Positions 8,965-64,000 of a stretch of DNA of 64,000 nt are shown here, piece by piece. Positions within the stretch are counted from its first letter, which is position 1. Every line of letters begins with the position of its first letter. The notes beneath the pieces were generated by a model. It ran no database searches. It was not told the origin of the DNA and saw only the letters and a program-made list of their open reading frames with translations. Position numbers and translations under genes: made by a program. The stretch is from Hyphomicrobiales bacterium (GTDB lineage Bacteria > Pseudomonadota > Alphaproteobacteria > Rhizobiales > Rhizobiaceae), in contig UBPA01000003.1 of assembly GCA_900467185.1 (NCBI GenBank), positions 868,001-932,000 of the forward strand. Direction: 5' to 3'.

Positions 8965-10506
8965 TCACGGCGCCGGCGGATACACCCATGCATAGCGGAT
9001 ATGATAGAGATCCCCCGGCCGGCCGTAGTGATAGGGCAGCGCGATGTCCTGCGCCTCGACCGGCCGGGCGGCGGCGCCCGTGGCGGCGCGGACATAGGCG
9101 TCCTGCCAGTCCCGCAGCAGCGGCACCAGCGGCGCATCCGCTTGCCCATCGTCGCGCCACACCATCAACAGGGGATGCCCGGCATCGAAGGCGACCGGCG
9201 GCTGGAAGGCCTCGTAGCCCGGGATCATCACCGGTATGCCCGGCGCGTTGAGGCGGAGATTGCCGGCCATCTGCAGATCGGCGGTCACGATCAGCGTCGG
9301 GCGGTGACGACCGGTCGCCAGGATCGCCTCGATCGCGGGCTGGTAGGGAACGTTGATCTTCTTGTAGTCGCCGGTCAGCCGGGCCGCGGGCACGCGCGCG
9401 AAAAGCACCAGGGGAACGACGATCATGAGGAGGATGGCGATCCGGCCGAAGTGCTTCGGTGCGGCGCCGAGCGGCTGATCCAGAAGATCGATCTTCAGCG
9501 CGAGATAGACCGGCAGCAGGAAGAAGAACGGCGTCAGCCACCGATCCTTGATGTGGGAGACCCCGCCGACCAGGACGAGCAGCACCAGCGCTGCGACGAG
9601 AATCAGAAGCATACGGCCGATCAGCCGCGACCAGGCGCTTTGGGTGTGCCACGCGGCGCGCAACTGCCGACCGAACACCGCGGCAAACACGCCGATCGTG
9701 ACGACCGAAAAGGCGATCAGAGCCTGCGCGAGCGAGATCAGGCCGTCCGCGATCTGGTCCAGCCGGCCGTCATCGCCGTCCTGCGTCAGTTTGCCGAGCG
9801 TCCGGTCCGTCGCCGTCCGGAAATGCTCCAGGAACCACACGCCGTGCGGCATCACGATCGCGGCGGCGACAATGGCCGTCAGCACCAACCGCACATCGAA
9901 AAGGCGCCGCCGGAAGACGGGATCGAGCAGGACGGCGACGAGAGCCGCGACGGGAAGCAGGACGAAATTGTACTTGGCGATGGTGCCGAGCCCGATCGCA
10001 AGCCCCGTCAGCGCGTAATGGCCGGCGGTCGGCTGCTGCAGGGTCGCCACCAGCGCGTAGACGAAGAGACAGGCGGCAAAGAGCACGGCCACCGTGTGCG
10101 TCAGGTCGCGCTGCGCCTCGAAGACGATCTGCGGCACGGTGAGAAGCCCGAGCACCGCGATGACGGTGAGAACGGGATTGCGGATGATCCGCGCCGCCGT
10201 CATGCCCACCAGCCCGTAACAGGCAAACAGCATCGCATTCTTGAGCAGCGACAGCGCCAGCACGGTATCGCCCAGAAGCTGGACGACGCCATATTGCAGC
10301 CAGTTGTAGAAGGGTGGCTGGCTGTCGTAACCGACGGCCAGCCACTGCGCGAGGAACAGCTGCTGCCCCTCGTCGAGCTCCAGCGAGGCCGGCAGGGCCA
10401 GCCTGAGCGCGATGTTGACGAGGAAATAGAGGGCGAGCAGCCCCGTGAGCCACCCGCGACGCCGCGACAATGCTTCGATCACGTCAGGCGTCCCGGCCGA
10501 GGACAC
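8965..10506 (-). CDS. Polytopic GT39/ArnT-like glycosyltransferase (polyprenyl-phosphate sugar donor)
   Basis: 513 residues, about 11-12 membrane helices. The first periplasmic loop has LELDEGQQ with the Asp-Glu pair near residues 45-46, typical of PMT/ArnT-type (GT39/GT83) transferases, and YDSQPPFYNWLQY follows. Such enzymes move a sugar from a polyprenyl phosphate to an envelope acceptor on the periplasmic face. It overlaps the upstream GT2 gene by 23 bp if the ATG at 10506 is used; a GTG at 10482, directly after the GT2 stop, is an alternative. In rhizobia a comparable pair (Rgt proteins) transfers galacturonic acid to LPS, which is an inference here. Confidence 0.82.
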   Translation of the reverse strand: MSSAGTPDVIEALSRRRGWLTGLLALYFLVNIALRLALPASLELDEGQQLFLAQWLAVGYDSQPPFYNWLQYGVVQLLGDTVLALSLLKNAMLFACYGLVGMTAARIIRNPVLTVIAVLGLLTVPQIVFEAQRDLTHTVAVLFAACLFVYALVATLQQPTAGHYALTGLAIGLGTIAKYNFVLLPVAALVAVLLDPVFRRRLFDVRLVLTAIVAAAIVMPHGVWFLEHFRTATDRTLGKLTQDGDDGRLDQIADGLISLAQALIAFSVVTIGVFAAVFGRQLRAAWHTQSAWSRLIGRMLLILVAALVLLVLVGGVSHIKDRWLTPFFFLLPVYLALKIDLLDQPLGAAPKHFGRIAILLMIVVPLVLFARVPAARLTGDYKKINVPYQPAIEAILATGRHRPTLIVTADLQMAGNLRLNAPGIPVMIPGYEAFQPPVAFDAGHPLLMVWRDDGQADAPLVPLLRDWQDAYVRAATGAAARPVEAQDIALPYHYGRPGDLYHIRYAWVYPPAP

Positions 10507-11485
10507 GGCGCACGATGTAGTTGGTTTCCCCGACCTGCATGCGCGCCAGCATCTCCGCCACGATGCCGGTGGTGATCATCTGCACCGATGCGATGAAGAG
10601 CATGACGGCGATGATGAACATCGGCCGCGTGCCGATGTCCTGCCCCAGCACGAACTTCGTCCAGGCGAGATGGATGAACATCAGGCTGCAGACGGCCCCG
10701 AAAACGAGGCCGATGGAGCCGAAGAACTGGGCCGGGCGCTGGCGAAAGCGCATGAAGAACAGCACCGACAGAAGATCGAGAAAGACGCGGAAGGTGCGCG
10801 AGATCCCGTATTTGGATTCGCCGAACTGGCGGGGATAGTGGTTCACCACCATCTCGCCGATGCGCGATGTCGGCACGACGGTCGCGATCCAGGCGGGGAT
10901 GAAGCGATGCATGCCGCCGAGAATGCGGATCTGCCGGAGAATGTCGGTGCGGTAGAGTTTTAGGCCGCAGCCGTAATCGTGAATGTGCACGCCGGTGATC
11001 TTGCGGATCAGCCGGTTTGCGAACCAGGACGGGATCAGCCGCAGAACGAGACCGTCCTGCCGCGCCTTGCGCCAGCCGCAGAGAAGATCGAGGCCGCGTT
11101 CTTCCAGCACGGCGACCATGCGCGGGATATCGTAGGGGTCGTTCTGAAGGTCGCCGTCGAGCGTGACCAGCAGGCGCCCGCGCGCCGCGTCGATGCCCGC
11201 CTGCAGGCCCGCCGCCTTGCCGAAATTGCGCTGGAACTCGACGATCCGCAGATCGAGCCCGGGCCGGGCGAATTCCTTGCGCAGATTGACCAGCGTCCCG
11301 TCCGTCGAGCCGTCATCGACGATGATCAGCTCCCAGGGCTTGCCGAAATCCCGCATCGCATCGCAGATCTTGTCGAAAAGCGGCGAAATGCTCTCCTCTT
11401 CGTTGCAGACCGGAATGAGGATCGAAAGCGCGACCTCGCCTGCGGTCTCGTCCGCACTCTCTGTTTCTGACGTGGCTTCCCGCAC
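10484..11485 (-). CDS. GT2 polyprenyl-phosphate sugar synthase (DPM1/ArnC/RgtE-like)
   Basis: 333 residues. A GT-A catalytic domain with SILIPVCNEE, DDGS (residues 57-60), RNFGKAAGLQAGID and metal-binding DGDLQNDP (from residue 110), then YGCGLKLYR and RQFGESKYG, followed by two C-terminal membrane helices. This layout makes polyprenyl-phosphate-linked sugars from nucleotide sugars at the inner membrane. It is the first gene of a two-gene operon with the GT39 transferase, which would use its product. The sugar cannot be read from the sequence; galacturonate (as in RgtE) is one candidate. Confidence 0.85.
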   Translation of the reverse strand: MREATSETESADETAGEVALSILIPVCNEEESISPLFDKICDAMRDFGKPWELIIVDDGSTDGTLVNLRKEFARPGLDLRIVEFQRNFGKAAGLQAGIDAARGRLLVTLDGDLQNDPYDIPRMVAVLEERGLDLLCGWRKARQDGLVLRLIPSWFANRLIRKITGVHIHDYGCGLKLYRTDILRQIRILGGMHRFIPAWIATVVPTSRIGEMVVNHYPRQFGESKYGISRTFRVFLDLLSVLFFMRFRQRPAQFFGSIGLVFGAVCSLMFIHLAWTKFVLGQDIGTRPMFIIAVMLFIASVQMITTGIVAEMLARMQVGETNYIVRRVLGRDA

Positions 11486-11602
11486 GTGGCGCTCCGGATC
11501 TATCTGGTTTTTCCCGCACTTCCGTTATAGCAGGCGGCCGCAGGGAGCAATCCGCAGCGCAGGGCGGCATGCCGTCGCAGGGACGTCGGGGGAGACGAAA
11601 GC

Positions 11603-12574
11603 GTGCAAACGTCGAGAAAGCACAACCGTATGCTGCTGCTTACCCTCGGCGTCGTCGGTCTCTATGCCGTCTTCCTCCAATGGTTCCTGGGATGGGGCGA
11701 GATCCTCTCGCGATGGCGGGCCGTGGGGCCCGGGACGGGCACGATGGCGCTGGCGCTGCTGGTGGCGACCTATATCATCCGCACCCATCGCATGCAGGAC
11801 TATTTTCGCCACGAGACGAAGGGCCGCTTTCTCGCGCTCTTCCGGGTGACGCAGATCCACAATCTCCTCAACATCATGATGCCGCTGCGCACCGGCGAGA
11901 CGAGCTTTCCCCTGTTGATGCGCTCGGAATTCGGCGTGCCGCTGGCGCGCGGCGCCTCGGCCCTCTTCGTCCTGCGCCTGCTCGATCTCCATGCCCTTCT
12001 CGCCGCCGGCGGCGTGGGACTGGTCGCGACGGCCCCGCGGCCTGCGGTTGCGGGATGTCTGTGGGCGCTCTTTCTCGTGCTGCCGCTTCTCCTGTTCCCC
12101 TTGCGCAAAGGCCTCGTCCGGCGCGCGAGACGGCATCTTCCGGCAAAACTTGCACGGGTGCCGGCAAAACTTGCACGGGTGATCGACGAGATCGATGCCG
12201 GCATTCCCGCCGACCTCGGTGCTTTCGGCCGCGCCTGGTTCCTCACCGTCGTCAACTGGGGCATCAAGGTGGCGGTGCTCGCCTGGGTTCTCGCGCTGAT
12301 GGGCGTGTGGCCGCTTTCGGCAAGCGTCGGGGGCGCGCTGGGCGGCGAGATCTCGTCCGTCCTGCCCGTCCACGCGCCCGCAGGGGTGGGAACCTACCCG
12401 GCCGGCATTGCGGCCGGTGCCGCAGCGCTCGGCGCATCGCGCGCGCCGGACGCGCTGGAGACGCTCGCCAGCGCCAGCGTCAACACGCATCTGCTGATCG
12501 TCGTCTCCGCCCTCGTCGGCACCGGGCTCTCGCTCATCCTGCCGTTTCTGGCGGGCGGACGCCCTCGCTCATGA
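11603..12574 (+). CDS. Lysylphosphatidylglycerol synthase TM-region/UPF0104 family flippase-like membrane protein
   Basis: 323 residues with six to eight hydrophobic helices, no soluble transferase domain. The family signature is seen in LRTGETSFPLLMRSEFG and in the later motif SVLPVHAPAGVGTYPAG, matching the conserved PxxPGGxG-like region of YbhN/MprF-type membrane domains. These domains move lipids or lipid-linked substrates across the inner membrane. It is divergent from the GT2-GT39 operon, so it may flip that pair's lipid-linked sugar; this is inference. A perfect 21-bp tandem duplication adds seven residues in a cytoplasmic basic loop. Confidence 0.72.
   Translation: MQTSRKHNRMLLLTLGVVGLYAVFLQWFLGWGEILSRWRAVGPGTGTMALALLVATYIIRTHRMQDYFRHETKGRFLALFRVTQIHNLLNIMMPLRTGETSFPLLMRSEFGVPLARGASALFVLRLLDLHALLAAGGVGLVATAPRPAVAGCLWALFLVLPLLLFPLRKGLVRRARRHLPAKLARVPAKLARVIDEIDAGIPADLGAFGRAWFLTVVNWGIKVAVLAWVLALMGVWPLSASVGGALGGEISSVLPVHAPAGVGTYPAGIAAGAAALGASRAPDALETLASASVNTHLLIVVSALVGTGLSLILPFLAGGRPRS
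12140..12181 (+). repeat. Perfect 21-bp tandem duplication inside the flippase-like gene
   Basis: Two identical adjacent 21-bp copies (12140-12160 and 12161-12181) encode PAKLARV twice. The frame is kept, so the protein gains seven residues in a basic loop. A recent slippage event is the simplest explanation. Confidence 0.95.
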
Positions 12575-63286: not shown

Positions 63287-64000
63287 TCAGGGCCCCGCGC
63301 GGCGGCGCTCCAGGAACTGGCGGCGCTCGAACAGCACGACCACGACGAGCGCCATCAGGAACGGGATGACGAGGTAGAACAGCCGGAAGATGACGAGGGC
63401 GGCCAGCACCGAGGCCGCATCGATCTCCGGCAGGGCCGCGATGAAGATCAGCTCGAGCACGCCGATGCCGCCCGGGGCGTGCGACAGGAGAGCGGCCGAG
63501 AACGAGGCGAGGAACACGCCGAGCACCACCATATAGCCCGGATTTCCTGCCTCCGGCAGCGCGAAATAGATGATGGCGGCAGCCCCGATCAGCTCGACCG
63601 GCGCGATCAGCAGCTGGCGCACCGCCAGCGTCGGTCGCGGATATTCCAGATGGAACCACCGCGTGCGGATGGGCCTGAAGCCGATGAGACTTCCCAGGAG
63701 ATAGAGGCCGATCAGCGCGAGAATGACGATCGCCGTGGAGATCGAGGCGCCGAGCGGGATGACGTCCGAGAAGCGATCGACGATCTCCGGCTCGATCAGG
63801 AGCACGATCGCCGACAGCGTCAGCGTGCCCAGCGCGAAGGTCAGCGAGCAGAAGGCGACGAGAATGCCGGTTTCGCTGACGCTCAACCCCTTCGAGCCAT
63901 AGGCCCGGTAGCGCACGACGGCGCCCGAGAAGACCGAGGCCCCGATGGTGTGGGACAGGGCATAGGCGGTGAACGAGCAGACGGTGATGAAGGTCAGCGA
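63287..64000 (-). CDS. LPG synthase TM-region/UPF0104 flippase-like protein, C-terminal part (5' end outside window)
   Basis: The frame stays open to the window edge; 237 codons plus stop are visible. Helix-rich, with YALSHTIGASVFSGAVVRYRAYGSKGL and FLASFSAALLSHAPGGIGVLELIFIAALPEID, both hallmarks of the MprF/YbhN membrane domain. It ends in FERRQFLERRRAG, so the soluble lysyl-transferase domain of MprF/LpiA is absent at the C-terminus. Second flippase-like member in the window besides the one at 11603-12574, with clearly different sequence. Confidence 0.8.
   Translation of the reverse strand, partial: SLTFITVCSFTAYALSHTIGASVFSGAVVRYRAYGSKGLSVSETGILVAFCSLTFALGTLTLSAIVLLIEPEIVDRFSDVIPLGASISTAIVILALIGLYLLGSLIGFRPIRTRWFHLEYPRPTLAVRQLLIAPVELIGAAAIIYFALPEAGNPGYMVVLGVFLASFSAALLSHAPGGIGVLELIFIAALPEIDAASVLAALVIFRLFYLVIPFLMALVVVVLFERRQFLERRRAGP

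Follow-up and report, generated by a model that had tools for sequence, protein, structure and literature searches.

A PF03706 membrane protein linked to RgtE-type glycosyltransferase genes in rhizobia, a candidate flippase for a lipid-linked sugar

How does a sugar that has been loaded onto polyprenyl phosphate inside a rhizobial cell reach the periplasm? The question is raised by three neighbouring genes in a 64,000-nucleotide stretch of a Rhizobiaceae genome (Hyphomicrobiales bacterium, GCA_900467185.1, contig UBPA01000003.1; G000:C9:868001-932000), the whole of which is called the window below. They encode a family 2 glycosyltransferase (GT2), a PMT_2-type glycosyltransferase of the GT-C class (PMT) and a flippase-like membrane protein of family PF03706. 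In rhizobial lipopolysaccharide (LPS), galacturonate (GalA) takes the place of phosphate charge, with effects on membrane stability and on life in the root. No flippase for polyprenyl-phosphate-GalA is named in the open-licence papers that we searched, which does not prove that none has been described.

In our judgement, the three genes probably form a three-component extracytoplasmic glycosylation module, in which the GT2 would synthesize the lipid-linked donor, the PF03706 protein would flip it and the GT-C protein would transfer the sugar. The first-pass annotation of the window had likewise read them as a lipid-linked sugar unit. All three open reading frames (ORFs) were present where it had placed them, the overlap of the PMT and GT2 frames amounts to 23 bases, and the third gene is indeed divergent (Table 1).

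Linkage of the three genes

The family sample comprised 199 genomes from 109 genera, and each of the proteins was used as a query on this same set, with a long GT2 being counted at 350 bits or more. An orthologue of the PF03706 protein was found in 33 of the 199 genomes (20 of the 109 genera), one per genome, and all 33 are among the 34 genomes that carry a long GT2 (Fisher p 7e-37, a value that overstates the weight of the association because the genomes are related). The parts of a three-component system, i.e. a linked synthase, a candidate translocator and a GT-C transferase, occur side by side: the flippase-like gene lies less than 3 kb from the GT2 gene in 33/33 genomes, and a PMT gene lies less than 3 kb from the long GT2 in 33/34, the exception being G155. 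The flippase-like and GT2 genes are on opposite strands in 32/33 genomes. They are adjacent in 30, with gaps of 111-230 bp, and a PMT gene stands between them in G061, G194 and G029. A single PMT is present in 27 clusters, two are present in 3 and three in another 3, and 1 cluster has none. The tally includes the flippase of G188, which is split over two contig ends (three partial matches); alignment A1 omits its pieces, and the identity correlation omits both these and G155. According to the first-pass annotation, a lack of co-occurrence of the flippase-like gene and the pair in other genomes would refute its reading; these genomes do display such co-occurrence.

The mean pairwise identity is 69% for the GT2, 58% for the PF03706 protein and 44% for the PMTs. 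Better conservation of the GT2 and the flippase, together with PMTs that vary in both sequence and number, would be expected if one donor served changing acceptors.

The surroundings of the trio differ between genomes. In the window genome it is flanked by infC and rplT, a context shared by G169, G094, G080, G067 and G084 (and by G134, which has no flippase gene). Of the 36 locus records compared, 22 have an AMP nucleosidase gene (named after its S. meliloti counterpart) as a neighbour. A third context is common to G015, G118 and G188, and the contexts of G009 and G155 differ again. The arrangement is not a product of chance, as it recurs in other genomes, and since the trio is kept through changing neighbours it appears to be more than frozen synteny. 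The 33 related genomes are not independent, and one clade could hold a frozen gene order without any functional tie, but the trio is intact in at least three contexts within the family and other gene orders are found outside it, which makes this explanation very improbable.

The class-wide sample comprised 385 genomes, among which the GT2 profile at E 1e-60 selected 27, our own included, and 27 other long-GT2 loci were inspected together with flanks of up to 6 kb. The PF03706 profile used to scan the flanks included the proteins of G378 and G533, the family of both of which was shown separately. Outside the family, the PMT, GT2 and PF03706 genes are collinear in G378, G238 and G213, a GT2-PF03706 pair is found in G533, and a more distant PF03706 gene in G277. 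The flippase profile at E 1e-12 found three genomes other than our own, with the gene beside a GT2 in two of them and not in the third (G318). The tie between flippase and GT2 is tight in the family and looser outside it. Taken together, the co-occurrence, the varied contexts and the collinear trios outside the family support the view of the locus as a lipid-linked sugar unit.

The candidate flippase

The flippase-like protein matches PF03706 at 74.4 bits (cut-off 33.4, E 1.5e-20) over profile positions 5-282 of 302, and it is 81-95% identical to its nearest named relatives, from Ferranicluibacter rubi and Rhizobium sp. strains. Residues R60, R63, H86, R96, E99, R125, D128, W219 and H296 are invariant in all 35 rows of the PF03706 alignment, a pattern that would fit a polar route for the head group of a lipid. 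The AlphaFold model of the window protein with four relatives was unusable (mean pLDDT 45.8). The family is present in 11 of 14 control genomes. The family of the window protein and the linkage described above point to a flippase function: the PF03706 domain of MprF has been linked to outward translocation of lysyl-phosphatidylglycerol (lysyl-PG), and archaeal UPF0104/COG0392 proteins encoded beside GT2 and PMT/STT3-like genes were predicted to be flippases in 2015 (PMC5898192).

The same linkage would arise if the PF03706 protein recycled spent polyprenyl phosphate inwards, or if it were an MPDU1-like accessory for the use of the donor and not a flippase of the charged lipid. Translocases for polyprenyl phosphate are known to be needed in their own right (PMC9876793), and MPDU1 is required for all dolichyl-phosphate-monosaccharide reactions by a mechanism that the source describes as unknown (PMC3281891). 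However, the translocation to which the MprF domain has been tied is outward, and general recycling would need no copy tied to one GT2. We therefore regard such a role as unlikely.

It is less probable still that the protein flips some other lipid, such as a phospholipid with a glyco- or aminoacyl group, and has no more than its regulation in common with envelope glycosylation. Other PF03706 proteins have been connected with the head groups of phospholipids, namely MprF itself and GpgF, the latter with glucosaminyl-PG (PMC12713373). Yet the flippase gene stays with the GT2 gene through changes of context, no lipid-modifying enzyme is constantly linked to the trio, and a dedicated MprF is encoded elsewhere in the genome. 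In MprF, the synthase domain PF09924 is fused to PF03706, whereas the 323-aa window protein carries PF03706 alone. One of the four PF03706 matches in the window genome has that synthase domain, and its closest solved chains are MprF/LpiA entries; lysyl-PG flipping is thus already provided for, and we rejected the flippase-like protein as a lysyl-PG flippase.

A second PF03706 paralogue (314 aa) is found in the window at 63287-64000 on the minus strand and runs past the window end (L029 1432-2376). None of the ORFs listed near it encodes a GT2 or a PMT.

The two glycosyltransferases

The GT2 contains a Glycos_transf_2 domain (PF00535, E 2e-31, above the Pfam cut-off), and its closest solved structure is ArnC (9bhc, E 6e-43). 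It has both features of a polyprenyl-phosphate-sugar synthase, the GT-A DXD motif and a C-terminal pair of transmembrane (TM) helices: D110-G-D112 is invariant, as is D58, in an alignment of 35 sequences, and the helices are predicted at 255-273 and 283-301. Its identity to the GT2 proteins of G194 and S. meliloti is 60% and 61%, respectively.

The PMT is the sole match to PF13231 in its own genome (58.9 bits, cut-off 26.1, E 9e-16) and has 10 TM segments by hydropathy. In GT-C enzymes the catalytic Asp sits after the first TM segment (PMC11127046), and the window protein has the acidic pair D45-E46 at this place, which is invariant in 43 of 43 aligned PMTs. It is thus a PMT_2 protein of the GT-C type by both domain and residue. 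A profile search of the PDB with the PMT family returned no match, and the AlphaFold model (window protein and four relatives) was unusable, with a mean pLDDT of 34.1.

The PMT had been called ArnT-like or GT39. The name holds as a distant likeness and fails for ArnT proper, as the protein scores 16.9 bits against the ArnT equivalog model (NCBIfam PRK13279) with its cut-off of 567. The GT2 reaches 165.2 bits against the ArnC model (PRK10714, cut-off 529). With both proteins under the cut-offs, we ruled out that the pair is ArnC/ArnT.

Relation to the Rgt system and proposed mechanism

Stretches taken from G194 match plasmids of R. leguminosarum at about 88%, covering 99% of 20 kb, and records of R. 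etli, R. phaseoli and Rhizobium sp. at 91-96%, which places this genome in the R. leguminosarum/etli complex. Its locus reads PF03706 (-), then PMT, GT2, PMT, PMT (+), and its GT2, 338 aa long, is the single GT2 match at E 1e-30. The window PMT is 39, 39 and 45% identical to the three G194 PMTs and groups mostly with those of single-PMT loci. We take rgtA-C to be located beside rgtE. RgtE is RL1470 (PMC7663294, PMC7795004), whose length is also 338 aa (PMC7795004), and RL0684 is listed in the RgtE/RgtA-D system of Rhizobium (PMC7663294, PMC7795004). RgtE is the probable identity of the GT2, judged by its length, its clade and its neighbourhood, and GalA is the probable sugar. The Rgt link suggested by the first-pass annotation thereby gains indirect backing, from the 338-aa GT2, three PMTs and PF03706 neighbour of G194 on the one hand and the length of RL1470 on the other.

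The module could operate as described with a different sugar, e.g. a hexose or an amino sugar, which would otherwise be compatible with the proposed scheme. The sugar specificity of the GT2 cannot be read from sequence in this case, and length, clade and neighbourhood are all that relates it to RL1470. We find this variant possible but rather unlikely, given that G194 has this protein as its sole strong GT2 match and that the GT2 named RgtE has a length of 338 aa.

The analysis establishes which genes are present, their domains and catalytic-type residues, and a linkage that persists in different contexts; the biochemical steps, the sugar, its acceptor and the direction of transport are our interpretation, as follows. 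The GT2, probably RgtE, would load the sugar, most likely GalA from UDP-GalA, onto polyprenyl phosphate at the cytoplasmic face. The PF03706 protein would then move the lipid-linked sugar to the periplasmic face, where the GT-C protein would attach the sugar to an acceptor in the envelope; the LPS core or lipid A is the most likely one. RL1470 was important for root colonisation in one study (PMC11103875). Because the flippase-like gene is single-copy and accompanies rgtE-type genes in 33/33 genomes, the translocation of polyprenyl-phosphate-GalA can be tested directly in laboratory strains and, if the proposed flippase function is true, the PF03706 family gains a defined lipid-sugar substrate.

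Comparison with known systems

GtrB/GtrA/Gtr and ORF15/ORF14/ORF12 of C. youngae are likewise clusters of a synthase, a membrane translocator and a GT-C enzyme, but their translocators are SMR-like (GtrA, Rv3789) or MATE (ORF14) proteins, whereas ours is a divergently transcribed PF03706 protein (PMC11127046). Direct evidence of flipping is lacking for the GtrA/SMR and MATE translocators too, according to the same paper. RgtE and RgtA-D of Rhizobium share with the window the length class of the GT2 and the PMT type of the transferases (PMC7663294, PMC7795004), and the cluster of G194, from the R. leguminosarum/etli complex, matches the layout of the window trio; the window has one PMT, the Rgt system three or four.

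As regards ArnC/ArnT, the nearest solved relative of the window GT2 is ArnC and the GT-C is of the ArnT type, but both window proteins fall short of the equivalog cut-offs given above. ArnE and ArnF accompany ArnC/ArnT, and no ArnE/F-like gene was noted in the immediate locus. The flippase domain of MprF and the C-terminal domains of archaeal UPF0104/AglD proteins belong to the same Pfam family as the window protein, which lacks the lysyltransferase domain of MprF. The archaeal UPF0104 members, like the window protein, neighbour GT2 and PMT/STT3-like genes (PMC5898192).

Observations against a dedicated flippase

Several observations weigh against the proposed role of the PF03706 protein. Its profile-profile similarity to MprF-type domains of its own genome is very weak (probability 5.5%), and a profile search of the PDB with the flippase family gave no match. 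Only 5 of the 27 class-wide long-GT2 loci have a PF03706 gene, one of them not immediately adjacent. In G155 there is no adjacent PMT, and the diverged flippase and GT2 genes share one strand. Finally, G134 (85% complete) has no PF03706 orthologue, although its GT2 (333 aa) and PMT (512 aa) are intact and stand in the infC-rplT context; it is a real exception to the linkage of the trio. G134 carries another PF03706 member plus the LAB_N module described below. Its GT2/PMT pair is at L064 9237-10837, with a gap of about 360 bp from GT2 to rpmI that looks like the trace of a lost PF03706 gene.

A second module with LAB_N

LAB_N (PF07578) was found above the cut-off in 65 of the 199 family genomes, one match under the cut-off (G096) being left out. 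In 51 of the 65, LAB_N lies less than 1 kb from a short GT2 on the same strand, often with a PMT. Pfam confirmed LAB_N in seven ORFs neighbouring short GT2s. In the genomes of L085 and L093 it is also beside a short GT2, and another ORF tried in each had no Pfam match. No PF03706 ORF was present at the 15 short-GT2 loci examined. The two modules are largely exclusive: 2 genomes have both the flippase and LAB_N, versus 10.8 expected (Fisher p 1.7e-4, without correction for kinship), and in genera g18 and g74 different genomes carry different modules.

Table 1. Position of the trio in the window and of the LAB_N module in other genomes
Feature	Position	Strand	Remarks
PMT_2/GT-C (PF13231) gene, predicted periplasmic sugar transferase	8965..10506	-	513 aa
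GT2, predicted polyprenyl-phosphate-sugar synthase, long ArnC/RgtE-like form	10484..11485	-	333 aa; Pfam, TM, DXD
Divergent intergenic region between GT2 and flippase-like gene	11486..11602	.	117 bp
PF03706 (LPG_synthase_TM / UPF0104) membrane protein, candidate polyprenyl-phosphate-sugar flippase	11603..12574	+	323 aa
Short GT2 + LAB_N module	L091 7977-10497 (G061); also L081, L083, L084, L089, L090, L092		mostly with PMT

The RgtE of M. loti has 244 aa, the length of the short form (PMC7795004), and LAB_N has been placed with the PQ-loop proteins, the group of MPDU1 (PMC3281891). We tentatively put forward, while holding it to be on balance doubtful, that PF03706 is the long-missing translocator of RgtE-type polyprenyl-phosphate monosaccharides, that the unrelated LAB_N performs the same step with the short GT2, and that a genome keeps one module. 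By its length, the short GT2 seems too short for the TM pair of the long form, and hence LAB_N may only anchor a short GT2 that has no TM segments.

Three-component systems were already known (PMC11127046), as was the prediction of PF03706 flippases beside GT2/PMT-like genes in archaea (PMC5898192). As far as the open-licence literature searched shows, three points are new: across rhizobia, PF03706 is tightly tied to an RgtE-type unit; a concrete gene can be named; and this unit alternates with the LAB_N module.

Further observations on related loci

In S. meliloti Ak57 the trio is located at CP090106.1:1151135-1154689, and its proteins carry the annotations GT39, GT2 and "flippase-like domain-containing protein" (the last encoded by LZK74_21440). 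The title of this record (L066; 3.7 Mb) names it S. meliloti "plasmid pSymB"; its size presumably fits the chromosome better, so that the pSymB label is probably wrong. A scan of viral-classed contigs for the GT2 gave three loci, and those at L167 and L168 encode relatives of the same kind with 54-55% identity, on contigs that may be host DNA. Near the trio, 20 of the 36 locus records (L048, L050, L045, L066 and others) have a protein annotated in S. meliloti as a diacylglycerol kinase family lipid kinase, which in G103 and G175 sits between the GT2 and the PMT. It is possibly a lipid-recycling partner, or else a bystander.

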